In this document: positions 2,074 to 58,614 of the stretch, piece after piece | How positions within the stretch are numbered: position 1 is the first letter of the stretch | Layout of the letters: the number at the start of each line of letters is the position of its first letter | Source of the DNA: an uncultured Bdellovibrionales bacterium | GTDB taxonomy: Bacteria; Bdellovibrionota; Bdellovibrionia; Bdellovibrionales; Bdellovibrionaceae | Direction: 5' to 3' | DNA length: 64,000 bases | Assembly: GCA_903926205.1 (NCBI GenBank) | Contig: CAIYID010000078.1 | Location: 1 to 64,000 of the forward strand | Translations under genes and position numbers: made by a program | The notes under the pieces: generated by a model | What the model was told of the DNA's origin: nothing | Seen by the model: the letters and a program-made list of their open reading frames with translations, nothing else | Database searches by the model: none

Positions 2074-2141
2074 GTAATCCAAAATTCTAGCGAGTGCAGA
2101 AGGTTTGTCAGAGTTGCAGTGATTTTTCAACAGTGGTGTTT

Positions 2142-2546
2142 ATGTCTTTTGTATGGCAAAAAGAATTCGAAACCGGCATTAAATCCATCGATGATCAGCA
2201 CAAGATTTTAGTCTCTATGATCGATGAGTTAGAGACGGCTGTCGTCGAAAAAAAGTCGGATGAATTTTTAGAAGTCATTTTGTCAAAAATGATTAAATAC
2301 GTGGCAAAACATTTTTCCCACGAAGAAAAAACTTTTATTTTTACTAAATACTCAGACGCCGACAATCACATGCGTGAACATGAAAAGTTGAAACAGCAGG
2401 TCTTGGATTTTCATACAAAGGTGCAGGCGAAAACGGCCAATGTTGATCAAACGATTCTCGACTTTTTAAAAACTTGGCTCACAGAGCACATTATGAAAAC
2501 GGACAAAAAATACATTGCTCATTTTAACAGCAAAAATGTGCAATAG
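2142..2546 (+). CDS. Bacteriohemerythrin
   Basis: Small soluble O2-binding protein of 134 residues with a non-haem di-iron centre in a four-helix bundle. The family pattern is visible: VWQKEFETGIKSIDDQH at the N-terminus (His20), HFSHEEKTF, HMREHEKL and a final WLTEHIMKTDKKY helix supplying His and Asp ligands. I chose the ATG at 2142 because the family normally begins just before this tryptophan; an in-frame GTG at 2094 would add 16 unrelated residues. It sits directly behind a chemoreceptor gene and ahead of cytochrome genes, which suggests a role in oxygen sensing, storage or delivery; that role is inferred. Confidence 0.92.
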   Translation: MSFVWQKEFETGIKSIDDQHKILVSMIDELETAVVEKKSDEFLEVILSKMIKYVAKHFSHEEKTFIFTKYSDADNHMREHEKLKQQVLDFHTKVQAKTANVDQTILDFLKTWLTEHIMKTDKKYIAHFNSKNVQ

Positions 2547-2636: not shown

Positions 2637-2815
2637 CCTCCCAAAGTCTGGAAAAAAAGACGAAGTTTTCATAGAAAAACAAACTAAAAACAAAAGAAAT
2701 TCAAACCTGCAAGACGAAAAAATTCTGCGCGAGGTCAAGCTATCGAATATATTCATTGCGAATTTAACTGATCGAGGGTTTAATTTTTGGATAAACAAAT
2801 CAAGGAGAATCATCA

Positions 2816-4132
2816 GTGATTAAACCAGTCAAAATTATTTTGTCGACAGTATTTCTGTGGGCAGCATTGACAGAAACGGCCTCGGCCCTTCCATCCTTCG
2901 CAAGACAAGAAGACGTGAACTGTTTTGCCTGCCATGCGATACCACCAAAATTGAATCGAGCCGGTTACGAATTCCGCGCGGCAGGTTACCGTGAGCCAGA
3001 AGAGATTGGTAAGCCCGCGTCCATCAGCGACGGAAGAAAAAGAGTGTCAGTGAGAGTCTCTGAGACCGCAACTTATACTCCGATGCCAATCGCCGGAGGA
3101 ACGACACCCGAAGTGATTCAAACTGGAGATACAGGTGGAACCACGGCTAAATTTTGGCCAGTGGCAGGAAGCTTCGGAGATAATTATGGACAGCGAACTG
3201 AAATAACGATTGCGACAAAACCAACCACAGGTGTTAATACAGCAACCCCTGCAAAAGGTACTGCGGTCACGACAGTTCCTCAAACGGCAGTGACTCTGAT
3301 TGATATTCGCTCTGCTTGGGGACAGTCTGATAACCATCTTAATGTTAGAGCTGGTGCGACAATGGGCCTAGTCAGTGGTTATGGAGCGGCAGACTCTTCA
3401 ATGTCTTCAAACAGTGTCGGAACTCCTGATCCTGTGTTTTTGTCAGGTACTAAAATAGGATCTAAGATCAGTTCCTCAAGCCCTGGCGTAGAAGTGGGTT
3501 ATACCTTTAAAGACCTCGATGTTGGTTTGGCCTCAGTGAATGGCTTGGAATATGATTACGTTGATCAGTCCTTGCATCCTAATAATAATGGTTATTCGGT
3601 GAGAGAAAACACGGATCCTTTGTACAACAGCCGAGATACTTATCTTCGATTCAATTACTTCCTTGGTAAGAAAAATGCCATCGGCGGGTATTACTATCAA
3701 GGAAATGTCAGCTTGCCGATCAATGCGACAGGGAAAACTCAAAAATACGCACTTGCCAATTATTCCGTTGATAATTTCACTCGCTATGCTCTGTATGGAA
3801 CTTATTATATCGATCGAAAAACGGCTTTGATGGGTGGAATGATTCAAGCAACGGATGCTTTCTATACCAATCCTTTGACGACTTCGAATAACTATTTCGT
3901 GTCACTTGATTTTTATAATGAGTGGGGCGCTTACGGAGTTCGTTATGATACCGGAACAGGAAATGTTGATGGAAATTTTGGTCTTACCTCAACGGACGCT
4001 TACATTGAGCTTTTCTCAAAATTGGGTTTTTGGGTTAAAGCGGATGTGTATTATAAAGATCAGCAAAATGGTAATACGACAGCAGATCTTATTACTGACG
4101 GTTTAACAATCACAGCAACTTATATATTTTAG
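2816..4132 (+). CDS. Fused monoheme cytochrome c / outer-membrane beta-barrel protein, Cyc2-like
   Basis: Protein of 438 residues with a GTG start preceded by AAGGAG. Residues 1-24 form a Sec signal peptide ending ASA. The mature N-terminus, LPSFARQ followed by C36-F-A-C39-H40 and then P-x-L-x-x-x-G-x-x-F-x-x-x-GY, binds one haem c. The remaining ~380 residues are Gly/Ser/Thr/aromatic-rich alternating strands and end in phenylalanine (TATYIF), as outer-membrane barrels do. This architecture, size and the FARQ...CxxCH...PxL block match the Cyc2 family of iron-oxidising outer-membrane cytochrome-porins; related barrels of unproved function also exist. A small cytochrome c follows 13 bases downstream, a plausible periplasmic electron partner. 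Extracellular Fe(II) or other electron uptake is inference. Confidence 0.72.
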   Translation: MIKPVKIILSTVFLWAALTETASALPSFARQEDVNCFACHAIPPKLNRAGYEFRAAGYREPEEIGKPASISDGRKRVSVRVSETATYTPMPIAGGTTPEVIQTGDTGGTTAKFWPVAGSFGDNYGQRTEITIATKPTTGVNTATPAKGTAVTTVPQTAVTLIDIRSAWGQSDNHLNVRAGATMGLVSGYGAADSSMSSNSVGTPDPVFLSGTKIGSKISSSSPGVEVGYTFKDLDVGLASVNGLEYDYVDQSLHPNNNGYSVRENTDPLYNSRDTYLRFNYFLGKKNAIGGYYYQGNVSLPINATGKTQKYALANYSVDNFTRYALYGTYYIDRKTALMGGMIQATDAFYTNPLTTSNNYFVSLDFYNEWGAYGVRYDTGTGNVDGNFGLTSTDAYIELFSKLGFWVKADVYYKDQQNGNTTADLITDGLTITATYIF

Positions 4133-4145
4133 AAAGGAAAAAAAT

Positions 4146-4499
4146 ATGAAGTTTTTATTATCAAGTTTAGTTCTAATGGCCATGACCTCCACAGCTTTTG
4201 CTGCAGGTAATGGAAAAGAGATTTTCGAGAGAAAATGCGCAAAATGCCATGGCGCCGGTGGTAAAGGTGACGGTCGACATTCTGATTCTTTGAAAACAAA
4301 GCCTCAAGATTTGACTGACAAAAACAAAATGTCCTCAATCACTGATGAGGAACTGAAAGTGTCAATCCAAAAAGGTGGAGCCGGTGTGACGAAAGAGAAA
4401 TTCGGTCACACGATTTCTACAGAGATGGAAGGTTACCCTGATCTCCCAGAGGCAGATGTGGGCGATTTGATCGCTTACATTCGCGCTTTCGCGAAATAG
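4146..4499 (+). CDS. Small periplasmic class I cytochrome c
   Basis: Soluble monoheme cytochrome of 117 residues. Signal peptide 1-19 ends AFA; the haem motif is CAKCH at residues 31-35, with conserved GGKGDG after it, as in cytochromes c6/c551-type. A methionine near residue 93 (TEMEGYP) is the likely axial ligand and DVGDLIAYIRAFAK is the typical C-terminal helix. It starts 13 bases after the fused cytochrome-barrel gene with AGAAAGGA as ribosome binding site, so the two are probably one operon, closed by a strong terminator. The likely job is carrying electrons across the periplasm between the barrel protein and the respiratory chain. Confidence 0.88.
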   Translation: MKFLLSSLVLMAMTSTAFAAGNGKEIFERKCAKCHGAGGKGDGRHSDSLKTKPQDLTDKNKMSSITDEELKVSIQKGGAGVTKEKFGHTISTEMEGYPDLPEADVGDLIAYIRAFAK

Positions 4500-4522
4500 T
4501 ATTTTAGCTTAAATGTTCGACG

Positions 4523-4567
4523 AATAAGAGCATTGCCTTTAACGGGTAATGCTCTTATTTTATTTTT
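4523..4567 (+). terminator. Strong intrinsic terminator after the cytochrome pair
   Basis: AATAAGAGCATT-x-CC at 4523-4537 pairs with GG-x-TAATGCTCTTATT at 4544-4559 around a short loop, followed by TTATTTTT. It cleanly ends the cytochrome operon. Confidence 0.85.
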
Positions 4568-5674
4568 ATGAATAGATATTTTTTATTTGCTCTCATTGTT
4601 GGACTTTTTTTTATTAATGTCGAGGCCTCTGCAGATAAAGATATTTGCCAGCAGCTAAAAAACTTCGTCGCAGCCGCAAAAACTTCTGAGGCAAAATTTC
4701 AAAAATTTATCGACACTCAGTGGAAATATGTGAAGAATTAATCAGTTATAATTTAGCGGTTCACAAGTTAGATTTGCAGCTGGAAGCCCAAGCCTTCGAT
4801 ACTGATTATTTGGTTTTAGATCAGTTGGGCGGTGTTCATCAGTCTTTGGCAGATATTTTAATCTCGATGACAACGGCGAATAAAAAAGATTATGAAAATA
4901 TGATTTCAAGGCTCAATAAATATCCAGTGTTGGTAGGGCAAAATCAAATTTTATTGAAGGAAGGGCTCCGCTGGAAAGTCACGGCGGTTAAAATGTTTTT
5001 ACAGAAAGTGCCGGCGCAGTTTGAACAGTTACTCACTGAGAAAGTCGAAGAAAGTCCTTTTTATAAACCATTTCTTGAAATGAATTCTTCGCTTTCAGAG
5101 GTAGATAAAAAAGAAATTCAAGGTCAAGCGCGGGAAGCTTTGGCTAACAAGGTTTATCCTGCTCTTAAGAAATTCAAAGAATTTGTCGTGCAAGATTATA
5201 TTCCTAACGCGCGGGAAGGAATTTCACAGATTGATTTACCGAAGGGTAAGGCTTGGTATCATTTTTTGGTCAAAATGCATACGACGACCAATAAAACCGC
5301 CGAGGAATTACACCAGAATTATGAGCAGGCTATAGAGACATCGCCAAACGGATAGATCCAGAGCTCCCCCGATTTTTTAAAGAATTACCTCGCTTGACCT
5401 ATGGTGTTCGTGAAATGTCTTCGTTCAAAGCAAAAGAATCTCCGGGCGCTTACTATGAGGGAGGAATTCTTGAAGCTGGGCGACCGGGTTTTTTTACCGC
5501 AAACACTTATGATTTATCGGCGCGGCCTTCAATATTCGTCTTTTCCATGACGAAGTTTTGCGCCACGGGGCTCTGCCTCTGGATGTTCTTGAAAGCCTCA
5601 TAATGAAATGGGTCGATGAACAAAAACAAGCACAGAAAAATAAAGCTCAGAAAGCAAAGTTTCTCCAGGATTAA
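4568..5674 (+). pseudogene. Frameshifted, internally deleted DUF885-family gene
   Basis: A secreted DUF885-type protein (a family with zinc-peptidase-like features) can be followed through four pieces in three frames. 4568-4741 gives a signal peptide and N-terminus; 4720-5355 the central helical part (LVGQNQILLKEGLRWKV, KGKAWYHFLVKMHTTTNKT); about 5350-5530 reads PRLTYGVREMSSFKAKESPGAYYEGG; and 5531-5674 reads NIRLFHDEVLRHGALPLDVLES, the family's C-terminal block. Between the last two pieces the expected stretch holding the HExxH-like motif is missing, so there is a deletion as well as three frame changes. The product cannot be functional. The initiating ATG overlaps the preceding terminator. 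Confidence 0.82.
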
Positions 5675-41352: not shown

Positions 41353-43047
41353 TCAGATATCAAGCTGAGTATTCGACAAAAGCTCTTCAATGGTGGTGAT
41401 TCCCGCGAGAACTTTTGAAATACCGTGATCACGGAAGGTTTTCATGCCTTTTTGCACAGCTAAACGACGAATCGCAGCACCGTCTTTTCTTTGCATAATC
41501 AGAGAGCGAATATCATCGTCGATGACTAAAAGTTCACCAATCAGAGTTCGGCCACTATAACCCTTTTGATTGCATTTATCACAACCCATGGCTTTACAAA
41601 CATTGGCGCTTTTTGCTTGTTCTGGTGTGATGCCCAGCATGTTTAATTCCAAGGCTGAGGGTTCTGTTTTAACTTTGCAATGAGGACAAAGCACTCGTAA
41701 AAGTCGTTGCGCCACCACTCCTAAAACGGAAGTGGCAATCAGAAAGGGTTCAGCTCCGATATCGATCATACGAGGGAAAGCTCCTGAGGAGTCATTCGCA
41801 TGGATGGTGGAAAGCACCAAGTGACCGGTGAGGGAAGCTTGAATTGCAAGTTCAGCAGTTTCTAAGTCGCGAATCTCACCGATCATGATCACATCAGGAT
41901 CTTGCCGGAGAAAGGCTCGCAGACCAGCCGCAAAAGTTAAACCTATCTTGGAATTCACTTGCACTTGACCCAAACCATGAAGGCGTTGCTCGACAGGATC
42001 TTCGATGGTCAAAATATTAATATCGGGAGCATTGATGCGTGAAAGACCCGCATATAAAGTGGTTGATTTACCAGAGCCCGTAGGACCTGTGACAATTAAA
42101 ATTCCATAGGAGCGATGGATTAAATCGTCCAATTTAATGAGCATCTCTTCTGGAAAACCGAGTTGCTCTAATTCAAGAACGACATTGGATCTATCTTGCA
42201 AACGCATCACGATGCGTTCGCCAAAGGCGGTGGGAACAGTGTTGAAACGAATATCGATATCTTTACCACCAACTTTTAAGGGAATTCGACCATCTTGCGG
42301 CAAGCGTTTTTCTGCGATATTCAAATTCGCCATAACTTTCAAGCGACTAGTGATGGAATTTTGCAGTTTTTTGGGTGGTTTGAAAATATCAAAAAGCACA
42401 CCGTCGATGCGTAAACGCACGGACATGTCTTTTTCGTAAGGTTCCACGTGAATATCGGAGGCCTTTTCTTTCACGGCTCGGAACAGAAGTGAATTGACCA
42501 GCTTGATCACAGGAGCATCATCCTCACCAGCTTCTAATAAGTCGATGATCGGATCTTCAAGATCGTACTCTTCTTGATCAATGTCTTCCATGCCAGCTAA
42601 ATTCGCCGTGCTTTTTTCATAAACCCGATTGATGGCATCTTGAATTTTCTGCGCGGTGCTCACCAGCGGTCGAATGCGTTTACCGAAAATCACCCGTAAA
42701 TCATCGAGCGCTCGCACATTGAGGGGATTGGAAGTTAAGGCAATGATTTGATCCTGTTCTTCTTTGAAGGGGAGGACATGGTGAGTTTTGGCGTAATTGA
42801 TCGGTAAATCTCGAATCAAATCCACTGGGATATCATTCACGGGAATGTCTTTGATAAAATCAAAGCCCATTTCTTTGCAGAGTTCAGAAACTAATTCGTC
42901 CGCGGTGGAAAACTCTTTTGTTGAAAGAGATTCTCCAATGGATAAATATTTTTTAATCAGTGACGGATTCGCCAGAACAGACTTCGTCTGCTCTGGCGAA
43001 AGAGAGGTCGCTTTGGTCAAAATATTAAAAACATCCATTGTCGCCAT
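41353..43047 (-). CDS. gspE: Type II secretion ATPase GspE
   Basis: 564 residues; cytoplasmic hexameric ATPase. An MshEN-like N-terminal domain is followed by the ATPase: Walker A GPTGSGKSTT near residue 320, the Asp box TIEDPVE, Walker B DPDVIMIGEIRDLETA, and the His box STIHANDSS. A CPHC...CDKC zinc module lies near residues 452-487. It starts 14 bases after gspD stops. Confidence 0.96.
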   Translation of the reverse strand: MATMDVFNILTKATSLSPEQTKSVLANPSLIKKYLSIGESLSTKEFSTADELVSELCKEMGFDFIKDIPVNDIPVDLIRDLPINYAKTHHVLPFKEEQDQIIALTSNPLNVRALDDLRVIFGKRIRPLVSTAQKIQDAINRVYEKSTANLAGMEDIDQEEYDLEDPIIDLLEAGEDDAPVIKLVNSLLFRAVKEKASDIHVEPYEKDMSVRLRIDGVLFDIFKPPKKLQNSITSRLKVMANLNIAEKRLPQDGRIPLKVGGKDIDIRFNTVPTAFGERIVMRLQDRSNVVLELEQLGFPEEMLIKLDDLIHRSYGILIVTGPTGSGKSTTLYAGLSRINAPDINILTIEDPVEQRLHGLGQVQVNSKIGLTFAAGLRAFLRQDPDVIMIGEIRDLETAELAIQASLTGHLVLSTIHANDSSGAFPRMIDIGAEPFLIATSVLGVVAQRLLRVLCPHCKVKTEPSALELNMLGITPEQAKSANVCKAMGCDKCNQKGYSGRTLIGELLVIDDDIRSLIMQRKDGAAIRRLAVQKGMKTFRDHGISKVLAGITTIEELLSNTQLDI

Positions 43048-43061
43048 GTGACTCGTTTTTC

Positions 43062-45425
43062 CTATTTTTGCTCAGTGTTTTTATCGCCATTAACCGGAGC
43101 CGCAGCTCGCACTCCTTGGATCTCGTCAATTTTATAACCATAAGGATCACGACCGCCCATATCTTTAATAAAGCCTAAACGTTGATCCACTTTTTTATTC
43201 AGGATATCTTTGGCATCGGTCGGGCTACGAATAATTTTTGGAGTCAAAAAGACCACCAAATTTGTTTTATCTTTTGAAGTTGTTCGTGATTTGAAGAGCC
43301 AACCAATGATTGGAATATCACCTAAAAGTGGCACTTTTTGCACGGTTTCTGACTCACTGTCTTTCATCAAACCACCAAGAACCGCCGTGTCTCCATTAGG
43401 CACTACGATATTGGTTTTAATTAATCGCGTGGCTAAGGGTTGAACATCGCCAGCAAAGTTTTGTGGCACGGGAGCGGCTGAGAGTTGAGCGATAGAATTT
43501 TCGACTTCCATACGAATCGAATTCGAAGCGGGACTGATAAAGGGTTTGATTTTCAATTTGATTTTTGCATCTTCTAGGTTTGGAGTTTTAATGGTCACGC
43601 CGGTGGTGCCTGTGCTTTGAGTCGTTGAAGTGATGACTTTGTCTCCCACTTCAATGATGGACTCTTGATTATTCAAAGCCAAAATCTGCGGAGTGGAAAG
43701 CACATTTCCATGGGCATTGGTTTTTAAAAAATTAACGAAAGAAATCAAAGAAGGAATTTTAATTCCCGAAGCGGCGGCGGTGGTAGAGCTTCCACTTGAG
43801 ATTGGGTTTAAGGTCAGAGCATTGCCTGAACCAAAGCCCAAAATAGCGCCAGTTCCACCGGTTGGACTCATCATCGAGGTCAAATCAGCTTGGCTAAATC
43901 CACCAAAACCCGAATGAAGACCTGAAGTTGTTCCGTCTCCGTTGTCTGCATATTGGTAAAAACCAACTTGCCAGTTCAGAGCATCTTTTGAACTCATCTC
44001 CATAATAATAGCTTCAACATAAACTTGATCGCTTGGTATATCCAATTTTCCAAGTAGTCCTAAAACCACTTCGTAGTCTTGTTTGCTGGCGACCACCACG
44101 AGGGAATTGGTGCCTTTGTCGGCGGTGATTTTCACATCACCACCAAAAATTTCTTGAGGAGTTTGCACACCCTGGGAAGTGATTTGTGGTGGCATTCCTG
44201 GACCAGCTCCTCCTGAGGTCGGTTTTGGCGAGGCATCTTTTGCAATGCCCGTGAGCGTTTGTGCGATTTTTTCCGCGTCACCGTATTTCAAATAATAAAC
44301 ATGCACTCCGCCGCTGTCTTCAGCACGGATTCGGAAATCAAGTTGGGCAACCAGTTTGCGCACGCGCGCGATGCCGGCAACATTTCCAACCACGATCAAG
44401 GAATTGGTTCGATCATCAGGGAATACCATGAAATAAGCAGAGCCTTTGTTTTGAGGAGAGCTCGACATTGGCTGAGAGAATCTAGGCACGCCGGCGGAGA
44501 ATCCGCCGGTGGTCGATGATTTGCTATCCCCTTTATTGACGATTTTCATCACTAGTTCTGCGATGTCTTTTGATTTTGCGAAGCGAATGGGTACCACTTC
44601 TAATTGGTCTTCAAAGCCTGGAACATCTAATTGATTTAAAATTTTCATGATCCGTTCAATATTAGAACCGTAGTCAGAAATAATTAATGAGTTGGTGGCC
44701 GTGTAAGGGGACAATTCACCATCTTTCGATGTTAAAATCCGTAAATCCCGGTTCACCATTTCAGCGGAAATATGTTTCAGATGCACAATGCGTGTGATCA
44801 TTTGATCGGCATTGGGATAATAATTTCCAGAATAAGTTTCAATGCCGTCTCGTTGGGCATTCCTAGCTGAGCGAATTTTTAAAAATTTTCCAGAAGGAAC
44901 TACGGCAAAACCGTTGATTGCTAAAGCAGATAAAAAGGCTTTGTAAGCTTCTGCTACAGTGATTTTTGAAGGCGCAATGACGGTGATTTTACCACGCACG
45001 CCAGGATCAACGATAAAGTTTTTGCCCGTCAATTCACTGATGGCTTTAACAATGTCGGTGATCTCTGCATTTGGAAAATCGAAGGACTCAATAGTGTCAG
45101 GAAAATTAGTATTAGTGATGTCTTCAATGGCCGCTTGAGCCATCTGCGCTTTTTTGTCAGCTGGTTTTGCCGGAGCACTGCCCGTGCGACTGGCGCTAGG
45201 TCCGCCGATAGGGCCACTAGGAACTCCGCTTTTTCCCAGAGCGGAATCATTGACTCCAGGAGCCGCTCGGCCCGGATTAGTGAGTTCGCCAGTTTCAAGC
45301 GGCGGCGGCGGAAAATCATCATCTTCAAATTGAGCCCAGGCGGGCATTGAAGTGGTCAGTGCTATCACCGGAGCCATCAAAAATTGGCAGCTCTTTTTTG
45401 CACGTGATCGGGATTTTAATGACAT
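43062..45425 (-). CDS. gspD: Type II secretion outer-membrane secretin GspD
   Basis: 787 residues. Signal peptide near 16-31 (MAPVIALTTSMPAWA), then a Pro/Gly/Ala-rich linker, N0 domain (FPNAEITDIVKAISELTGKNFIVDPGVRGKITV), N1-N3 domains (IVHLKHISAEMVNRDLRIL, VVPIRFAKSKDIAELV, VHVYYLKYGDAEKIAQTL), and the secretin barrel with VYVEAIIMEMSSKDALNWQVGFYQ, NVLSTPQILALNNQESII and VPLLGDIPIIGWLFKSRTTSKDKTNLVVFLTPKII. N2-N3 hold a Ser/Gly-rich insert. It forms the exit pore. Ribosome binding site AGGAG. Confidence 0.96.
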   Translation of the reverse strand: MSLKSRSRAKKSCQFLMAPVIALTTSMPAWAQFEDDDFPPPPLETGELTNPGRAAPGVNDSALGKSGVPSGPIGGPSASRTGSAPAKPADKKAQMAQAAIEDITNTNFPDTIESFDFPNAEITDIVKAISELTGKNFIVDPGVRGKITVIAPSKITVAEAYKAFLSALAINGFAVVPSGKFLKIRSARNAQRDGIETYSGNYYPNADQMITRIVHLKHISAEMVNRDLRILTSKDGELSPYTATNSLIISDYGSNIERIMKILNQLDVPGFEDQLEVVPIRFAKSKDIAELVMKIVNKGDSKSSTTGGFSAGVPRFSQPMSSSPQNKGSAYFMVFPDDRTNSLIVVGNVAGIARVRKLVAQLDFRIRAEDSGGVHVYYLKYGDAEKIAQTLTGIAKDASPKPTSGGAGPGMPPQITSQGVQTPQEIFGGDVKITADKGTNSLVVVASKQDYEVVLGLLGKLDIPSDQVYVEAIIMEMSSKDALNWQVGFYQYADNGDGTTSGLHSGFGGFSQADLTSMMSPTGGTGAILGFGSGNALTLNPISSGSSTTAAASGIKIPSLISFVNFLKTNAHGNVLSTPQILALNNQESIIEVGDKVITSTTQSTGTTGVTIKTPNLEDAKIKLKIKPFISPASNSIRMEVENSIAQLSAAPVPQNFAGDVQPLATRLIKTNIVVPNGDTAVLGGLMKDSESETVQKVPLLGDIPIIGWLFKSRTTSKDKTNLVVFLTPKIIRSPTDAKDILNKKVDQRLGFIKDMGGRDPYGYKIDEIQGVRAAAPVNGDKNTEQK

Positions 45426-45434
45426 TTCCGACTC

Positions 45435-46376
45435 CTATTCAATGGTGTAATCTTTTTGCACATCTCGACCGTCTGATTCCACGGTCAACTTGATGGATGA
45501 AGAAGTTTTAAAAGCATTGTAAATTTCCATGGCTTTTGCTGGGCTGTCGATGGGTTCACCATTCACAGATTTAATGCAATCGCCTTGATTAACCCCCAGA
45601 TCAGCAAAGATGCTATCCGGCTTAAAAGAGGTCAGGATATAGCACTCAATATCGCCATTCGCTTTTCTGCGTGGCACGGTTGAGGCTTGCATCAGTAAAC
45701 TCGACAAATCCGAAGTGTGTTTAAGAAGGGTCTCGCGTTTAAGAATATATTTGTTAGGTGCCACTTGCTTCACTTCGCCAGGACCTTTAGGGGCCGCCAG
45801 GGGAGCGGGATTATTAAAACTCAATTTATTTTGGTTTTTGATTTCAATGTATTCCAGTCGCCCTAGGTTGGTATTGCGAATGATGGCTTTGTTGCGCTCC
45901 ACTTTCACCAAGGTCGCAATATTGTCAATTTCACGATTTGGCATCAGCGCAATGACCATGTTCTTGGATTTCACTTCGATATTAGCAATGGATTTTTCCG
46001 GTTTTGTTAAAACCACAGTCCCAATCAAATTGAGCGGAAGTTGAGAGAGCACGGGAGGAGCTTCCACTCCGGCTCGGTTGGGGTCATTGGGATTTGCTTT
46101 TAAAGCCAAAGCATCAGGAATCATACCGTCTTGATTAAAAAGATTTCGACTGATAATGCTTTGATAAGAAGCTTTGTTGCTCGTATTGAATTGCGCAGGT
46201 TTTGGCGGCTTAGCCGGTGGCGCTTTTTGTGGCAACATTAAATCTCTGATGCTCATGATTCCTACGTCAGAAACCGTGTAGCCAATCAAGGCGATCAATA
46301 CATAAGGAGCCAAACCTTCGGCAAGAAGGCGAGCTTTTGATTTTACTTTGGAATGTCGTCCTACTGATGAATTCAC
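45435..46376 (-). CDS. gspC: Type II secretion protein GspC with PDZ domain
   Basis: 313 residues; inner-membrane protein that contacts the secretin. A membrane helix near residues 22-45, a Pro/Lys-rich linker, an HR domain near 110-180 (LPLNLIGTVVLTKPEKSIANIEVKSKNMVIALMPNREIDN), and a C-terminal PDZ (YILTSFKPDSIFADLGVNQGDCIKSVNGEPIDSPAKAMEIYNAFKTSS). It is the first gene of the twelve-gene operon, so a promoter should lie in the 133-base gap before it. Confidence 0.92.
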   Translation of the reverse strand: MNSSVGRHSKVKSKARLLAEGLAPYVLIALIGYTVSDVGIMSIRDLMLPQKAPPAKPPKPAQFNTSNKASYQSIISRNLFNQDGMIPDALALKANPNDPNRAGVEAPPVLSQLPLNLIGTVVLTKPEKSIANIEVKSKNMVIALMPNREIDNIATLVKVERNKAIIRNTNLGRLEYIEIKNQNKLSFNNPAPLAAPKGPGEVKQVAPNKYILKRETLLKHTSDLSSLLMQASTVPRRKANGDIECYILTSFKPDSIFADLGVNQGDCIKSVNGEPIDSPAKAMEIYNAFKTSSSIKLTVESDGRDVQKDYTIE

Positions 46377-48272: not shown

Positions 48273-49106
48273 ATGAACTCAACACAGCCTCAAAATCCGG
48301 TGCCTTTTTTTGTAACGATTCCTCATTCCGGCGAAAAAGTTCCCGAGGAATGTTCTTGGCTAAAAGCTTTGCCAGAAGAGATTCTCATGTGTGATGTGGA
48401 TCGATTCGTTGATCGGCTTTATGAGCCCGCTTTAGGGATGCTTAAAATTTCCTCAATAAAAACCGAATGGCATCGCTATGCGGCAGACTTGAATCGAATT
48501 CCAGAAGATGTGGACGCGGCCTCTGTGCAAGAGCATCTTAATGCAGCGGGTCTGCATAATCGCGGATTTCATTGGCAGATCACGACAAAAAAACAAGCCT
48601 TGATGAAGTCTCCAATGCCTTTGGAATTGCATGAAAAATTAATCAAACTTATTTATGAACCTTTTCATGAAAGTATTCGAAATCAGTACAGAATGTTTAA
48701 CAGCAGCTCATTGAAATCTGTTTTTCAATTGGACGCGCACAGCATGCCTTCCTTGGGCACTTCAGAGCACCGTGATCCCGGTCAACAACGTGCCGAAATT
48801 GTTGTCAGTGATTGCAAGGGACTTTCCTCTTGTCCACAATTTGTCGATTTAGTGATCGCGGCCTATGCCAAAGCAGGCTTCAAGGTGGGATATAATTGGC
48901 CTTATTTTGGTGGAAGAGTGAGTGAACAATATGGCGATCCAAAGCGGGGTCAGCATGTTGTACAGGTCGAAATGAACCGAGCTCTTTATATGAATGAAGA
49001 GACTAAAAAACTCTTGCCGGATTCAAGTGCCATTCAGCAAATTCAGGAAAAGCTTCAAAAAGCCCTGGCTTATATTCAAGACCATTTAATTCTTGGCCTC
49101 AATTAG
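48273..49106 (+). CDS. N-formylglutamate amidohydrolase-like protein
   Basis: 277 residues. PFFVTIPHSGEKVPEECSWL, CDVDRFVDRLYEPAL, WHRYAADLNRIPED, QLDAHSMPSLGTSEHRDPGQQRAEIVVSD and YFGGRVSEQYGDPKRGQHVVQVEMNRALYM follow the N-formylglutamate amidohydrolase order, including the HSG and D-H-S/P metal sites. No other histidine-degradation gene is near, so the substrate may be another N-formyl or N-acyl compound. It is divergent from the adenosyltransferase gene. Confidence 0.85.
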   Translation: MNSTQPQNPVPFFVTIPHSGEKVPEECSWLKALPEEILMCDVDRFVDRLYEPALGMLKISSIKTEWHRYAADLNRIPEDVDAASVQEHLNAAGLHNRGFHWQITTKKQALMKSPMPLELHEKLIKLIYEPFHESIRNQYRMFNSSSLKSVFQLDAHSMPSLGTSEHRDPGQQRAEIVVSDCKGLSSCPQFVDLVIAAYAKAGFKVGYNWPYFGGRVSEQYGDPKRGQHVVQVEMNRALYMNEETKKLLPDSSAIQQIQEKLQKALAYIQDHLILGLN

Positions 49107-49131
49107 ACGCTGTGTTATTCGTTTTCACCTC

Positions 49132-50523
49132 ATGCAAAAAAAAATCATTAAATTTCTCGCCTCATTGAAGCTTTCGGTCATTATCATCATCCTTCTTTGT
49201 ATTTTGATCGCAATAGGGACCATCATTGAATCGCAATACAATGCCACCGTCGCGACCAAATTGGTTTATCGAAGTTGGTGGATGTTTGCGACGATGTTGG
49301 CTCTTGTGATCAGTTTGACTTCAGTGATGGTGGATCGTTGGCCGTGGAAGTCTCGACATGCTCCCTTTGTTTTAGCTCATATCGGAATTATCATTTTGTT
49401 GTTCGGAGCTTTACTTACAATGAAATTTGGTTTGGATGGTTCTCTTCGTGTTCCTATGAATGAGTCCAGTCGCTCCGTGGTTGTGAATAACACCGAGTTT
49501 TCGGTCTATGCTTCTGTGGAAGGAAAAGATTATACCAAAGTCTTTCAGCAAGAAGTTGATTTTTATTTGGCATCGCCAGAAAAAAATCCTCTTCGTGTTT
49601 CGACTGAGGCCGGAGTGCTTCAAGTTGAGCGTTATTTGCCCTACGCTTTACCTGAGCGAAAAATTCGTCCTGCCACTGACGCGAGTCCGGCCATTCGTTT
49701 TCAGATTGCGAATGATCGCGCTAATTTCACGGAATGGATGGTTGCCACTCCAACGCGAACAAAAATCGAAAAAAACTTAGGCCCAGCGAAGGTGACCTTT
49801 TTGACCACAGAGGAAATTCCTTCAAAGCCCACGGGTGCCAACGAAATTTTTCTGCAAGCCAAACCAGGCCAAGTGAAACTTAATTATGCCATTTTTTACC
49901 AAGATCAAAAACGCAAAACTCTGCGTGGACAAATTGAAGAGGGTGGAAAAGTGGCGACGGGCTGGGTCGGGTTGGAATTAAGACTCCTTCGTTATTTTCC
50001 GAGTGCAGAAGAAGTTTATGAGTTTAAACCTGAAGAACGTCCAACGGAGTTAAACACAGAAGCCATCGAAGTGTCCTTGAATGGGAAAAAGCAATGGCTC
50101 TCACTTGATGATGTCGTGCATTTTTATACTCCCAAAGTCACCTACGCCGTTTTTTACGGACATCAAAAAATTGAATTGGCGTTTGATGTGCATTTGAAAA
50201 AATTTGAGATTGGCCGTCATTTGGGAACCATGAGAGCCATGAGTTATCAAAGTTTAGTGAATGTGGCTGGCGATCCTTCGGGTGATCATTTGATTGCGAT
50301 GAATGAGCCAATGAAATACCAAGGACTCACTTTTTATCAAGCGAGTTTTCAAGAGGATCCGGCGACGGGGAATCCTGTGGCGAGTGTTTTTTCGGTGAAC
50401 GCCGATCCAGGTCGCTGGTTTAAATATTTTGGTTCGTTTTTGATCGTCGTTGGTACGATACTTATATTTTATAATAAACGAAAAGCGGCACGGGCGCAGG
50501 CTCCGGCCTCTGGTACAAACTGA
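49132..50523 (+). CDS. resB: System II cytochrome c maturation protein Ccs1/ResB
   Basis: 463 residues. The ATG at 49132 begins MQKKIIKFLASLKLSVIIIILLCILIAIGTIIES, the ResB opening; an earlier in-frame start lacks a homologous leader. Three membrane helices lie near 10-30, 45-65 and 75-100, a large periplasmic beta domain runs from ~100 to 400, and the C-terminal helix YFGSFLIVVGTILIFY follows PMKYQGLTFYQASFQED. With CcsA it brings reduced haem to apocytochromes. The stop is 23 bases before ccsA. Confidence 0.9.
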   Translation: MQKKIIKFLASLKLSVIIIILLCILIAIGTIIESQYNATVATKLVYRSWWMFATMLALVISLTSVMVDRWPWKSRHAPFVLAHIGIIILLFGALLTMKFGLDGSLRVPMNESSRSVVVNNTEFSVYASVEGKDYTKVFQQEVDFYLASPEKNPLRVSTEAGVLQVERYLPYALPERKIRPATDASPAIRFQIANDRANFTEWMVATPTRTKIEKNLGPAKVTFLTTEEIPSKPTGANEIFLQAKPGQVKLNYAIFYQDQKRKTLRGQIEEGGKVATGWVGLELRLLRYFPSAEEVYEFKPEERPTELNTEAIEVSLNGKKQWLSLDDVVHFYTPKVTYAVFYGHQKIELAFDVHLKKFEIGRHLGTMRAMSYQSLVNVAGDPSGDHLIAMNEPMKYQGLTFYQASFQEDPATGNPVASVFSVNADPGRWFKYFGSFLIVVGTILIFYNKRKAARAQAPASGTN

Positions 50524-50546
50524 AAAGGCGAAAGCAGTCAGGTGAT

Positions 50547-52226
50547 ATGATGATAAAACAGTGTTGGTTTTTTCTGGTATTTTTGATTTTGAGTTCCCCC
50601 TTGGCTCACTCGAAGGAAGATGTTTTGGCTTCGCTTAAACGTCTGCCAATTCAAGAAGGTGGTCGAATTAAACCTTTAGACACTTTTGCCAGAGAATCTT
50701 TGGCCCTGATTTACGGTAAGGAAACCTACGAGCATAAACCTGCCATTGAAGTGATGATGACCTGGGCCCTTGAACCGCAGATTTGGGAGACGAAAGAATT
50801 TGTCGAGATTCGCTATAATTTGGTGAAAAAGGCGCTTCATTTCGAGGAAACTCAGAATTATTTTACGCTCAAGAAAATCCTGGGAAATGACCGATTATCC
50901 TACGTGTTGCAAGAACTTCAAAGCAAAAGAGAATCCAAAGCCAAATTAGATCCTTATTTTCAAGCCCTGCAAAGACTCGAAGGGCAGATGGGAGTTTTTC
51001 AGTCCATTGCCTCGGGAGATTTGCTCCACTTAGTGCCGCCTGATAAATCTGAGACTTCACCGAGTGCTCCTTGGTGGGGGCCTAGTCGGTGGACTCCGGA
51101 GCAAAGGGAGGCGTTTGGTCAGGTGAATCGGAGCTTTGTGAAATTTTTGTTGGCATTAAGTCCTAATAAAAATATCAGCGAAGACGAGTTGCGCCAGTTG
51201 AAAGAAAATATGGATAAATCCGTGACGCAATTTTCTGCCTTGGCTCGTGCGAACAATCTTGAGAAATATCCGGATTATTCAAGGATTGATATGGAGCTCA
51301 CTTACACGGAATGGCATCCTTTTCAAAAGGCCTGGATTCTCTATTTGTGTTCCGTGTTGATGATTATTTGTCTCTGGATTTTTAAATGGAAAAAATTCTA
51401 TTTCTTGTCTTGGTTATTTGCTTCAGCAGGCCTGGTGGCCCATCTGGCCGGTTTTATTCTTCGAATTTATCTCACCGGGCGTCCGCCGGTTTCGAATATG
51501 TATGAAACCGTGATTTGGGTTTCTTTTGGAGCGATGGTTTTTGCGATGGCGATTGAGTCCATCTATCGTTGGCGATTTATTTTACTTGCGGGAGCTTTAG
51601 TCTCTGCATTTTGTTTGATCTTGTCTGATAATGCTCCGGTGATTTTAGATCCGACGCTGCAGCCTTTGGAAGCTGTGCTCAATTCGCAGTTCTGGCTCAC
51701 CACTCATGTTTTGACCATCACGATCAGTTATGCCGCTTTCTTTTTGGCCTTTGCATTGGGTGATTTTGGTCTCTATTTTTATTTTAAAGGCGAGAGTGAG
51801 CAAGATCCGAAACTTCGCGCTATTACATTATCTATATATAGAGCAATGCAAATTGGAGTGGCGCTTTTGGCTCCCGGAATTATTTTAGGTGGAGTGTGGG
51901 CAGATTATTCTTGGGGTCGCTTTTGGGGTTGGGATCCAAAAGAAACTTGGGCCTTGATTGCCCTTTTGGGATATGTGGCGGTGTTGCATGCTCGCATGGC
52001 AGGACTGCTGAAGGGTTTTGGTCTTGTCGCTAGTGCGGTAGTGACTTTCTCTTTGGTGATTATGGCGTGGTATGGGGTGAACTTTATTCTTGGAGCGGGG
52101 CTTCATTCCTATGGCTTTGGAGCCGGAGGAGTTGAGTACGTTGCTGGTTTTGTCGGTCTTCATCTGGTCGCTGTGATATTCATCGCAGTTTTGCATCAAT
52201 CAAGACAGAAAATGCGCAAACATTAA
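50547..52226 (+). CDS. ccsA: System II haem export/ligation protein CcsA
   Basis: 559 residues. A signal-anchor and a periplasmic helical extension of about 250 residues (RLPIQEGGRIKPLDTFARESL, as in CcsA of related groups) precede an eight-helix membrane domain with the haem-binding WWD block GRFWGWDPKETWALIA near residue 460 and conserved His at TTHVLTITISYA and GLHSYGFGAGG. With Ccs1 it attaches haem to CxxCH motifs. Directly upstream of the ACIII genes, which contain at least six haem c motifs. Confidence 0.92.
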   Translation: MMIKQCWFFLVFLILSSPLAHSKEDVLASLKRLPIQEGGRIKPLDTFARESLALIYGKETYEHKPAIEVMMTWALEPQIWETKEFVEIRYNLVKKALHFEETQNYFTLKKILGNDRLSYVLQELQSKRESKAKLDPYFQALQRLEGQMGVFQSIASGDLLHLVPPDKSETSPSAPWWGPSRWTPEQREAFGQVNRSFVKFLLALSPNKNISEDELRQLKENMDKSVTQFSALARANNLEKYPDYSRIDMELTYTEWHPFQKAWILYLCSVLMIICLWIFKWKKFYFLSWLFASAGLVAHLAGFILRIYLTGRPPVSNMYETVIWVSFGAMVFAMAIESIYRWRFILLAGALVSAFCLILSDNAPVILDPTLQPLEAVLNSQFWLTTHVLTITISYAAFFLAFALGDFGLYFYFKGESEQDPKLRAITLSIYRAMQIGVALLAPGIILGGVWADYSWGRFWGWDPKETWALIALLGYVAVLHARMAGLLKGFGLVASAVVTFSLVIMAWYGVNFILGAGLHSYGFGAGGVEYVAGFVGLHLVAVIFIAVLHQSRQKMRKH

Positions 52227-52925: not shown

Positions 52926-52947
52926 AATTATAAGTGTGGAAGGTTTT

Positions 52948-55900
52948 ATGTCTGAAATAAACAAGGATATTGTTCAAAAGCAAACACAACCAGAGGCTCT
53001 GCAACCAGAGGCTCTGCAACCAGAGGCTCTGCAACCAGAGGCTCTGCAACCTGCTCAATTTGGTTATTGGAAGTCTTTAGCTCAGTGGAATCAGGATTCT
53101 GAATTTCAAAAGGCCGCAGCTCAAGAATTTCAAAGTTCACCTTTGCGTGAAGAAGAATTGACCGAGGAAGACCGCGATGGAGGTTGGGCTCGGCGCGAAT
53201 TTCTGAAATTGATGGGCGCTTCCTTAGCAATGGCAAGCACGGCCTGCATTCGTCGACCGGTTCAAAAAATTGTTCCCTATAATAAAGCTGTGGAAGAAAT
53301 CACTTTTGGTCTTCCAAATTATTACACCTCTTCTTATTTTGACGGTGCTGAATCCTTGGGATTATTAGTTAAAACGCGCGAAGGTCGTCCGATTAAAATC
53401 GATGGAAATCCAAAGCATCCTTTGAATGGCGGAGCTTCCTCGACTCGCGCCCAGGGTTCTATTTTATCTCTTTATGATCCAGAACGATTGCACGGACCGC
53501 GCAAAATTTCTTCAGGCACCGCCGTAGAAACAACTTGGGCCGAGGCGGATGCAAGCATAGTGGCGCAACTTCAAAAAGGTGGAGTGGTCGTTTTGACCGG
53601 AGCTTTGAATTCGCCGGCAACGACGGCGTTGGTGAAGGAATTTACCCAAGGCTTTAAAGCAAAACATGTTCAATATGAGGCTTTGTCTTCAGAAGAAATT
53701 CGAGAAGGCCAAAAAGCGAGTTACGGTGATGAGGCTGTGCCATTCTATCACTTTGAAAAAGCTAAAATTATCGTGTCTGTGGATGCTGACTTCTTAGGAA
53801 CTTGGCTTGCGCCAACAGCTTTCACTCGGCAGTTTGCGGCAGGTAGAAAAGATCCTGCGACCATGAATAAATTGGTTTCCTTTGACTCAAATTACTCTTT
53901 AACAGGAGCCAACGCCGACATTCGCGTAAAAATTAAACCATCGCAACAAGTGGATGTTGTGATGGGACTGGCGCATGAAATCGTGGTTAAAAAAGGAGCC
54001 AGCAAATTTGCGGCTCAAAGTAGCGTGAAGTCAGCTCTCGCTGCCTTTGCTGAAACTCCTACAAAGCTTGGAATTTCCCACGAATTATTCTCTCGCTTGG
54101 CAGAGGATCTTTGGAAGCACAAAGGTCAGAGTTTGATTGTGGCGGGTGGTTTGGTGACCCAAACTGAGGCCGCAAAAGATTTGCAAGTGGCCGTGAATTT
54201 CTTGAACTCCGTTCTAGAAAATGACGGAGCCACTGTCGACGGTCGTTCGGGATTCAGTGGTTTGAAGGCTTCGACAAAAGCGATTTTTGAGCTAATTGAA
54301 GAAATGAAAAAAGGCTCTGTCAAAACGCTGGTCATTCATGGAGTGAACCCAAATTATACTTTACCAAGCGCTGCGGGCTTTCGCGAAGCGGTAAAAAATG
54401 TCGGTATGATTATTTCTTCTAGCGATCGAGTCGATGAGACCGGTACTGTTTCTTCTTATGTATTGCCAGACAATCATCCGATGGAATCTTGGGGCGATGC
54501 GGAGATTATTGATGGTGTTTACACGATTCAGCAGCCGACCATTCGACCTATGTACGACACTCGAAGTTTTCAATTGTCTTTAATGACTTGGGCCAAAATT
54601 GCAAAAGTAGGAGGAAAGAGAATTTCTTCCTCTGATTCTTACTACGATTATGTGCAAGCCATTTGGAAAGACGAAATTTATTCTCAAGTTGCCAAAGCGG
54701 CGGCTAAAGGCACGAATAAAGCTGCCGGCTTTGAGTCTTTCTGGGATCAAGCTCTGCAAACGGGTGTGGTGGATTTAGGAAAACAAACAAAGTCGAGCCC
54801 GGCTAGAACTTTTAAACTGGATGCTTTAAATTCAGTGAAAGCCAAATCAGCGAGCGGTCTAGAACTTGTTTTGTATCCGACCGTTAATTTAGGAGATGGC
54901 AGATTTGCTAATATTTCTTGGCTGCAAGAACTTCCTGATCCAGTTTCAAAAATTTGCTGGGATAATTTCGCGGCGGTTTCTTTAGCGACGGCGGAAAAGC
55001 TTCAACTCAAAGAGAAAACTTTGGTGGAGCTTGTGATCGGTGGACGTTCCGTAAAAATTCCACTTTATATTCAACCCGGCCTTCACAATGACGTGGTGAC
55101 CGTGGCGATTGGTTACGGTCGCACCGCGGCTGGAAAAATTGCAAACAATGTTGGCGTGAATGCTTTTGATTTTGCAAAAATTGAAAAAGGGGCCTTGATT
55201 GCGTCTGGCTTGATTGTGGAGTTAAAGCCAACTCAAGAAGCTTATAAATTAGCTTGTGTGGCGGGCAATGCCACCATGGAAGGTCGGAAGATTGTCGCAG
55301 AAGCGACTTTGACGGAGTACCTCAAAGAAAAAGGGGCCAACAACCATCGCCATAAAACCTTCTCTATTTGGAGTGGGCATCAATACAATGGCAATAAGTG
55401 GGGCATGGCCGTTGATCTCAACAGTTGTACTGGTTGCTCCGCCTGCATGATTGCATGCCAAGCCGAAAATAATATTCCTGTCGTTGGTAAAAAATATGTT
55501 CTTCAAGGTCGTGAGATGCACTGGATGCGAGTGGATCGATATTATGTTGGAAATCCTGAAAATGCCGAAGCGGTTTTCCAGCCAGTGATGTGTCAGCAAT
55601 GTGACAATGCTCCTTGTGAAACGGTTTGTCCTGTCTTGGCGACCGTGCATTCGAGCGAAGGTCTGAATGATATGACCTACAATCGTTGTGTGGGAACAAG
55701 GTATTGCTCAAATAACTGTCCTTATAAAGTACGACGCTTTAATTGGTTTAATTTCACCGGACCGGTGGAAAAACCTTTGAATTTACAATACAACCCAGAT
55801 GTGACGGTCCGACCTCGAGGGGTCATGGAAAAATGCACTTTCTGTGTTCATCGTATTAAGGCAGCTCGTAATCAATCGCGCTTGGAAAATCGCGAATTGA

Positions 55901-56148
55901 AAGAGGGCGATATTCAAACAGCTTGTGAGCAAGTCTGCCCGGCGAAAGCCATCATTTTTGGTGATTTGAATGATCCAGAAAGTCGCGTGGCCAAAATTTT
56001 CAAAGAGGAGCCTCGAGCTTATGGCTTGTTGGAAGAGTTCAACGCCGCTCCCGCTGTTCGATATCTGACAAAAATTAGAAATAATGATCAAGAGAAACGA
56101 TTCCCAGGAACTGAAGGGGCTTCTCACAACAAGGGTGGTCATGCATGA
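52948..56148 (+). CDS. actB: Alternative complex III subunit ActB (molybdopterin-fold plus Fe-S domain)
   Basis: 1066 residues, fusing an ActB1 domain of molybdopterin-oxidoreductase fold with an ActB2 ferredoxin-like domain. The N-terminus has four exact EALQP repeats, then a Tat-like [23 protein letters not shown] near residue 80. The Fe-S half holds [61 protein letters not shown] and [11 protein letters not shown], ligands for several clusters (up to four expected in ACIII). In known ACIII the first domain lacks a molybdenum cofactor. Start chosen at ATG 52948, after GGAAGG. Confidence 0.95.
52991..53050 (+). repeat. Perfect 15-base tandem repeat, four copies
   Basis: CAGAGGCTCTGCAAC occurs four times without error at 52991-53005, 53006-53020, 53021-53035 and 53036-53050, inside actB. 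Each unit contains the palindrome CAGAG-G-CTCTG. The unit is a multiple of three, so copy-number change would lengthen or shorten the EALQP repeats without a frameshift. Confidence 0.95.
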
Positions 56149-57533
56149 TGAAGAGAAAAGCTCTCGTTATAGGTCATAAAACGCTTCAAGAGGTGACTGA
56201 GGACATCGTTGCACCAGTGGAAACAATGCCTGGCAAAGGATGGATCAGTTTATTTTTGAGCGCGAAATTATTATTTTTGTTTTACATCATTACCATTGCC
56301 ATCGTCGTGTCGACGGGGATGGGACTTCTGGGTGTGAATCATCCGGTGGGCTGGGGAACAATGATTGTGACCTTCGTCTTCTGGATCGGTATCGGTCACG
56401 CCGGAACCTTGATCTCTGCCATTCTTTTCTTGTTCCGTCAGAAATGGAGAACTTCTGTCGCAAGAACGGCGGAAGCTATGACCGTTTTTGCTGTTATGAC
56501 TGCGGGAATTTTCCCTCTGATTCACACTGGCCGACCTTGGTTGGATTACTGGTTATTTCCTTATCCTAATCAGCGGGGACCATTGTGGACGAACTTTCGA
56601 TCGCCTCTTTTGTGGGACGTCTTTGCCGTGTCAACGTATGCCACTGTTTCGATGGTCTTTTGGTACATCGGTTTAGTGCCAGATTTTGCCACCATTCGCG
56701 ATCGCGCTCGACATAAAATTCGTCGTAAAGTTTATGGAGCCTTATCGCTCGGTTGGCGAGGACGAGCTCGTGACTGGAGTCATTACGAAATGTTGTATCT
56801 GTTGCTCGCGGGACTTTCAACTCCGCTGGTGCTTTCGGTTCACACTATCGTCAGTTTTGACTTCGCAGTTTCGAATGTTCCTGGCTGGCACACCACGATT
56901 TTCCCTCCCTATTTCGTTGCGGGAGCGATATTCTCTGGTTTTGGAATGGTCGTCACTTTGATGACCTTGGTGCGAATTGGATTTCCTAAGTTCAAAGACT
57001 ATATCACTATCGATCATATGGAAGTGATGAATAAGATCATCATGGCCACCGGGATGATGGTGGGTTACGCCTATGCCTGTGAGTTTTTCATCGCTTGGTA
57101 CTCTGGCAATATGTATGAAAAATTCACCTTCATTAACCGTGCTTTTGGTCCTTACTCTTGGGCTTACTGGATCATGGTTTCTTGCAATGTTCTGATTCCT
57201 CAGATTTTCTGGTTCAAGAAATTACGCCGAAGTATTCCGATCATGTTTGCCGTTTCAATTTTTGTGAATATCGGAATGTGGTTCGAACGCTTTGTGATCA
57301 CAGTTACTTCTTTGCATCGCGATTTCTTGCCTGCTAACTGGGGAAATTATGCTTGGAGTAATTACGATGCGGCCATTTTATTCGGCAGCTTCGGAATGTT
57401 TCTTACCTTATTCTTGTTGTACTTGCGTTTGTTTCCCGCCATCTCTATTGCGGAGATCAAACCAGTGATACACGTTGGTCAAGAGGATTGTAGAAAACCT
57501 GATCAAAAAGTGGATCATAAAGGGGGTCATTAA
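56145..57533 (+). CDS. actC: Alternative complex III membrane subunit ActC (NrfD-like)
   Basis: 462 residues, about ten membrane helices in the NrfD/PsrC manner. [41 protein letters not shown] holds the quinol-site region, and [67 protein letters not shown] is a strongly conserved ActC block. [18 protein letters not shown] follows. It is the quinol-oxidising membrane subunit; the start overlaps actB's stop (ATGA). Confidence 0.95.
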
Positions 57534-58054
57534 TGGGAGGCTCAAAAACTGGAATGGCGGCAATTTTTCTTACCGAAGCTCAAGTTTTAGTCGCAGCAAA
57601 GAAAACTCATGATATGGGTTTTGTAAAATATGATGCGATCACTCCTTACCCTGTTCATGGAATGGAAGAAGCTTGCGCTCTTAAGCGCTCGTGGATTCCC
57701 TATGTCACATTTGGAGCGGGTTTTTGTGGGTTGAGTCTTGCACTTTGGTTCACCTGGTGGACTTCTGCTGTGAACTGGGCCATCAATGTGGGTGGTAAAC
57801 CTTTTTTCTCTCTGCCAGCTTTTGTACCGATCATGTTTGAGTTAACAGTTTTATTTGCGGCCTTAAGTTCTGTGGTGGCCTTATTTTATGCGGCGGGATT
57901 GCCAAGAATAAATCCGCCGATTTTGGATAAAGACCTGACTTGTCACAAATTTGCTATTTTTATTCCTTCTGATGATGTCGGTTATGATGAGAAGAAAATC
58001 GAAGCGATGTTTCGAGCTCTTGGCGCATCCGAAGTTAAGAAAGCAGAGTTTTAA
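57533..58054 (+). CDS. actD: Alternative complex III subunit ActD
   Basis: 173 residues. DUF3341-type: a cytoplasmic-side N-terminal domain (VAAKKTHDMGFVKYDAITPYPVHGMEEAC), two membrane helices near 60-80 and 100-125, and PFFSLPAFVPIMFELTVLFAALSSVVALFYAAGLPR, the family hallmark. The start overlaps actC (TAATG). It is thought to support assembly or conformational coupling in ACIII. Confidence 0.92.
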   Translation: MGGSKTGMAAIFLTEAQVLVAAKKTHDMGFVKYDAITPYPVHGMEEACALKRSWIPYVTFGAGFCGLSLALWFTWWTSAVNWAINVGGKPFFSLPAFVPIMFELTVLFAALSSVVALFYAAGLPRINPPILDKDLTCHKFAIFIPSDDVGYDEKKIEAMFRALGASEVKKAEF

Positions 58055-58055
58055 G

Positions 58056-58607
58056 ATGAAAAAGCTAATCATTTTTTCCGCCTGTGCATTGGGAATTTCG
58101 GCTCTGTCAGGTTGCGGACCGCGTGGTAATCAGCCAAATGTAGAGATTTTGCAAGACATGATGGTTCAGCCCGCGATCAAAGCTCAAAGATATGATGATT
58201 TTTTCAAAGATGGAGTTTCAGCGCTAGTTCCACCAGAGCACACCGTTCCTGTTGGATTTACTCCTTACAAATACGGATTTAATGCAGACTTAGCCGACAA
58301 AGAATTGAAAAATCCTTATGCGGGTCTTATGACCCCAGAAGTATTAAATATAGGACAAAAATTCTTTGAATCGAACTGCATGGCCTGTCATGGAGTGGGC
58401 GGTCAAGGGGATGGTCCCATCGCAGCCAAATTTCCTTTGAAAATTCCAGCTTTGGTTTCAGATAAAATTAAGGGTTGGTCCGATGGTCGAATTTTTCATA
58501 CGATCACGATGGGTCAAGGGGTGATGGGCCCTTATGCCTCCCATGTTCCTCAAAAGTATCGTTGGCAAGTGGTCAATTACGTTCGCACTCTTCAGAAGAA
58601 GCAATAG
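58056..58607 (+). CDS. actE: Alternative complex III monohaem cytochrome c ActE
   Basis: 183 residues. Lipobox LSGC near residue 19 makes it a lipoprotein. One haem motif, CMACH, lies near residue 108, followed by GQGDGPIAAKFP and a probable axial Met in MGPYASHVPQ. The conserved pre-haem segment EHTVPVGFTPYKYGFNADLADKELKNPY is typical of ActE. The ATG at 58056 is one base beyond the actD stop; longer starts lie inside actD. Confidence 0.92.
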   Translation: MKKLIIFSACALGISALSGCGPRGNQPNVEILQDMMVQPAIKAQRYDDFFKDGVSALVPPEHTVPVGFTPYKYGFNADLADKELKNPYAGLMTPEVLNIGQKFFESNCMACHGVGGQGDGPIAAKFPLKIPALVSDKIKGWSDGRIFHTITMGQGVMGPYASHVPQKYRWQVVNYVRTLQKKQ

Positions 58608-58614
58608 GTGAAAT

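Follow-up and report, generated by a model that had tools for sequence, protein, structure and literature searches.

The cytochrome-porin locus

The window, a 64,000-nt stretch of a contig from an uncultured Bdellovibrionales bacterium, carries a gene for a Cyc2-like protein that joins a small monohaem cytochrome to a porin, followed by a gene for a periplasmic cytochrome c and an intrinsic terminator (Table 1). The porin reading frame opens with GTG, ca. 8 nt downstream of AAGGAG. Its product begins with a putative signal peptide, MIKPVKIILSTVFLWAALTETASA (residues 1–23, ending in ASA and recognized by eye), and the mature protein starts with LPSFARQEDVNCFACHAIPPKLNRAGYEFRAAGYREP and continues into a long barrel region. 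A single haem motif, CFACH, occupies residues 36–40 of the N-terminal stretch ALPSFARQEDVNCFACHAIPPKL, and the protein ends in ATYIF, with Phe as the last residue. The signal peptide, the haem motif and the terminal Phe noticed at the first-pass annotation of this DNA are all present in the 438-aa reading frame.

The cytochrome c gene begins 14 bases past the porin stop codon. When the partner cytochromes of homologues were aligned, the Met that corresponds to Met94 was invariant, as expected of a distal haem ligand. The surroundings described at first pass (a monohaem cytochrome as the next gene, a strong terminator behind it, an adjacent bacteriohemerythrin and, in the same genome, alternative complex III) were likewise recovered, though 270 bp separate the end of the bacteriohemerythrin gene from the porin gene. 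A chemoreceptor gene is also among the neighbours, and the GC and GC3 values of the porin/cytochrome pair are near those of this gene. The DUF885 gene next to the terminator appears to be broken: a 211-aa reading frame covers profile positions 50–243 of 532, and its apparent continuation seems to sit in a different frame. Type II secretion genes are found farther along the window.

Table 1. Features of the window discussed in the text.
Feature	Position	Strand	Basis or remark
Bacteriohemerythrin gene	2094–2546		NF033749, 3e-37
Ribosome binding site AAGGAG ahead of GTG start	2802–2807	+	Sequence
Cyc2-like fused monohaem cytochrome-porin, 438 aa	2816–4132	+	ORF, AlphaFold2 model, Foldseek, hhalign to Gallionellaceae Cyc2, tree
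Cytochrome domain of the porin protein, ALPSFARQEDVNCFACHAIPPKLNRAGYEFRAAGYREPEEIGKP...	2885–3040	+	Best-conserved portion of the protein
Class-I monohaem periplasmic cytochrome c, 117 aa, CAKCH, distal Met94	4146–4499	+	PF00034, E 1.6e-12; alignment with homologues' partners
Intrinsic terminator closing the pair	4522–4560	+	17-bp stem, then T-rich tail; −23 kcal/mol, z −7.5
DUF885 gene, apparently broken	4569–5603		
DUF885 gene, 211-aa ORF	4720–5355		
DUF885 gene, apparent continuation	5394–5603		
Type II secretion genes	41353–46376		Secretin, GspE, GspC
ResB and cytochrome c assembly genes	49093–52226		Adjoining alternative complex III genes
Alternative complex III genes	52936–59820		Molybdopterin/Fe-S protein, NrfD, cytochrome c

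Relationship to Cyc2

No family model in Pfam or NCBIfam covers the porin, and a PDB sequence search with it found no relative. Matches in plasmid records were partial and N-terminal only, and the FARQT pattern was absent from the five genomes tested. A scan of GTDB genomes yielded 46 relatives of about 350–590 aa, and almost all of these contain FAR-x, CxxCH and PxL. Gallionellaceae genomes yielded 19 Cyc2 proteins, mostly with FARQ-T/V and CHxQHFP; since published Gallionellaceae Cyc2 belong to Cluster 1 (PMC7029218, PMC8406198), these 19 sequences were taken as the Cluster 1 reference. Comparison of the window family profile with them by hhalign gave a probability of 99.2% (E 2.2e-19) over 337 columns, at an identity of only 14%. 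Because this homology extends over its length, the window porin, judged by its sequence, is a Cyc2-like fused cytochrome-porin.

Iron-oxidizing bacteria take up electrons through Cyc2, an outer-membrane pore with one haem, and most of the traits by which it is recognized are present in the window porin. Besides the signal peptide, assigned by inspection, and the single N-terminal CxxCH, the window protein has a PxL (PKL) a few residues after the haem motif, and its 438 aa exceed the lower limit of 365 aa. The published motif AxPxFAR[Q/K][T/Y] is matched by ALPSFARQE at all but the last position, which is E and not T/Y; the full motif is also missed by 7 of the 19 Gallionellaceae proteins. Chance origin of the motif was rejected, as the same motif and length recur in homologues from several phyla and the genome holds two paralogues.

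The AlphaFold2 model of the mature porin (pLDDT 81.4, pTM 0.83) contains 16 main strands, the number given for the Cyc2 barrel by Keffer et al. (PMC8406198). The barrel starts at about residue 78, and the helical haem domain is modelled with confidence. Foldseek matched the model to the PDB porins OmpT, PorB and OmpU (E ~1e-10). A model of a Gallionellaceae Cyc2 is a barrel with the same kind of porin matches, and its haem domain is of low confidence. Thus, the Cyc2 architecture and family relation proposed at first pass, including the barrel, are supported by the sequence profile, the predicted fold and the gene pairing.

The CxxCH motif keeps its two Cys and its His without exception in 38 diverse family members whose barrels are poorly conserved. 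No conserved second His or Met haem ligand is present in the window family alignment; in Gallionellaceae Cyc2 a His stands at column 20 in 89% of sequences and is likewise not invariant.

Two variants were seen beside the main family. In a further Bdellovibrionota type (L092, L093, L096 and L098), S-Q-W-[ST]-R-K-Y replaces PxFAR, and in several cases a small monohaem cytochrome follows. Another locus, L091, has two tandem cytochrome-porin genes of a variant that lacks PxL (AVPAFGRAMGG...CNACH).

Phylogenetic placement

The main tree (72 rows, 359 columns) represented Clusters 2 and 3 by likely members only, with the Leptospirillum (Cyt572) and Acidithiobacillus references left out. The window porin paired with its paralogue L005 (100/100); the clade around this pair (100/97) has 11 members, from Bdellovibrionota, one Myxococcales MAG (L008) and one Elusimicrobia MAG (L009). 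This clade fell on the side of Nitrospira and Gemmatimonadota, apart from Gallionellaceae (99/97). Trees of the N-terminal part and of the barrel concur in placing the window protein nearest L005 and then L012, and both recover the clade, with 95% support from the barrel and only 33% from the 46 N-terminal columns.

Membership in Cluster 1, that of the neutrophilic iron-oxidase Cyc2, was rejected (AU p 0.0025), as was grouping of the window/L005 pair with Cluster 1 plus the plasmid FARQTG proteins (AU p 0.0002). Also rejected was a single clade of the three cyc2-like copies of the genome (AU p 0.001); the third copy, L006, groups with homologues from other genomes. The placement among Cyc2 clusters implied by the first-pass annotation therefore holds in part: the protein lies outside Cluster 1, is distant from the plasmid proteins with FARQTG (probable Cluster 2) and falls on the Nitrospira side. 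The latter is the side most like Cluster 3, an affinity suggested by proximity only. Cluster 3 is considered functionally the most uncertain by Keffer et al. (PMC8406198).

With Cluster 1 (Gallionellaceae, Zetaproteobacteria and Chlorobi), the window porin shares the signal peptide, AxPxFAR, the single CxxCH, PxL, a similar length and a modelled barrel that matches the same kind of PDB porins, but it lacks the CHxQHFP signature. With the FARKY cytochrome-porins of the Cluster 3/Nitrospira type (the Leptospirillum Cyt572 group), it shares the side of the tree, FAR[KRQ] and a PxL three residues after CxxCH, whereas its own subclade has FAR-x-E/Y and an NRxGYEYRxAGFR-like stretch. As in Cluster 2 (Acidithiobacillus Cyc2-Cyc1 and, probably, the plasmid homologues of Methylocystis, Caballeronia and Ideonella), the cyc2-like gene is followed by a c-type cytochrome, but the partner there has two CxxCH motifs and the window partner is monohaem. 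MtrAB, MtoAB and PioAB are also outer-membrane electron conduits that contain a barrel; they differ in that the barrel has 26 strands and the cytochrome ten haems (PMC8406198), and the MtrB family was not found in the window genome.

Gene context across the family

By a crude count of ORFs with CxxCH, which are not verified genes, 29 of the 65 family members with enough sequence have the start of a c-type cytochrome ORF no more than 400 bp downstream, compared with 0/65 on the antisense strand and 7/72 upstream. Within the window clade, L005, L002, L003, L081 and L009 have such a downstream ORF and L006, L013 and L082 do not; L008 has a cytochrome upstream of the porin, and in L012 the upstream cytochrome is divergently oriented.

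Two loci of this clade include further respiratory genes. In the Myxococcales MAG (L008:1949–5030), genes for a cytochrome c, the porin, a Rieske protein and cytochrome b are arranged in series. In the Elusimicrobia MAG (L009:3491–7295), the porin and a cytochrome c are followed by a Rieske-like stretch, recognized by tblastn to the L008 Rieske protein, and by cytochrome b fused to a cytochrome c. Possibly, these loci are a unit that couples a haem porin of the outer membrane with a bc complex. On the opposite side of the tree, L044 lies near alternative complex III genes.

Distribution in the genome and phylum

The genome of 3.34 Mb (99.96% complete) has three cyc2-like genes, two of them with a cytochrome partner. 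The second pair (L005) shows about 40% and 43% identity to the window pair, and in the 400 bp downstream of the third copy there is no cytochrome. Genes for a cbb3 oxidase (CcoNO/CcoP) are present; the RuBisCO large chain was not found in the genome.

Cyc2-like matches were obtained in 4 of 60 near genomes, the window genome counted. Across the phylum, 32 of 369 genomes were positive, with 24/369 at E below 1e-6 as the safer count, since the other eight positives are weak (E above 1e-6), with a different haem motif in at least one of them (G008). G009, a genome of the same family as the window genome, has a homologue whose first 60 residues equal those of the homologue in a MAG named Bdellovibrio sp. 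(L010), so that Bdellovibrionaceae is the likely family. One Bdellovibrionota MAG is listed among those carrying iron-oxidation genes (PMC12501874), so the presence of cyc2-type genes in this phylum is not wholly new.

A putative outer-membrane electron conduit

We propose, with a probability of about 0.7, that the pair encodes a Cyc2-type outer-membrane electron conduit leading from a small redox donor through the porin haem and the partner cytochrome to the cbb3 oxidase or to quinone-linked complexes. The porin, presumably lodged in the outer membrane, would hold at the periplasmic mouth of its 16-strand barrel the small N-terminal cytochrome, with haem presumably attached at CFACH. By analogy with Cyc2 (PMC8406198), a small soluble donor (Fe(II), another reduced metal or a small molecule) would come into the pore from outside and reduce this haem. 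The electron would then pass to the class-I cytochrome c of the next gene, which is likely co-transcribed, and from there to the cbb3 oxidase, for accessory respiration, or to quinone-linked complexes. Electron uptake of this kind would supplement heterotrophic growth. As the genome gave no match for the RuBisCO large chain, we envisage accessory energy and not Calvin-cycle autotrophy on iron, which is unlikely.

This proposal is supported by the profile match, the AlphaFold2 barrel and haem domain, the downstream cytochromes, the second pair, the L008 and L009 loci, and the presence of CcoNO/CcoP, alternative complex III and ResB/cytochrome c assembly genes. It also draws on the demonstration of Fe(II) oxidation for three Cyc2 proteins, one per cluster (PMC8406198). 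It is weakened by the position outside Cluster 1, the 14% identity, the lack of a conserved second ligand, the third copy without a cytochrome and the absence of the RuBisCO large chain. On balance, there is good support for an electron conduit across the outer membrane, and the bacterium can probably pass electrons through that membrane by means of the porin and a small carrier; that Fe(II) is the donor and that flow is inward we infer.

A true Fe(II) oxidase, by which the bacterium would carry out dissimilatory iron oxidation in the manner of Gallionella and Mariprofundus, would have the same architecture, and the full-length homology, the partner cytochrome and the cbb3 oxidase agree with it. 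We nevertheless regard it as rather unlikely, given that the porin lies outside Cluster 1, that the RuBisCO large chain was not found and that the gene is mostly missing in close relatives. Less likely still is an outward redox porin that dumps electrons on an acceptor outside the cell, or a protein linked to the periplasmic cytochrome c for redox sensing or detoxification (e.g., of reactive oxygen, Fe(II) or Mn(II)). The direction of electron flow is not set by sequence, a chemoreceptor and a bacteriohemerythrin are among the neighbours, and the presence of two pairs and a third copy suggests differing donors or conditions; however, flow was inward in the biochemically tested family members (PMC8406198), and the cbb3 oxidase is an obvious electron sink. 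A further reading, in which the protein is an ordinary solute porin and its small haem domain transfers no electrons but acts as a gate or persists as a relic, would fit the general porins among the PDB matches and the lack of an invariant sixth ligand, but it is very improbable in view of the invariant CxxCH beside a poorly conserved barrel and the recurrence of c-type cytochrome genes downstream.

As to the family, Bdellovibrionota and some Myxococcota and Elusimicrobia may, tentatively, have Cyc2-type conduits that form a distinct lineage and connect to class-I cytochrome c and to complexes of the bc type, which would give some relatives of Bdellovibrio a previously unrecognized source of energy from extracellular donors. 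Cyc2-like matches outside Clusters 1 and 2 represent separate lineages, and motif searches alone are no ground for the label "iron oxidase". Because this two-gene unit is compact and occurs twice in one genome, it opens the function of the uncharacterized side of the family to direct testing. If the conduit is confirmed, some members of a lineage known mostly for predation and scavenging would be able to gain energy from extracellular electron donors.
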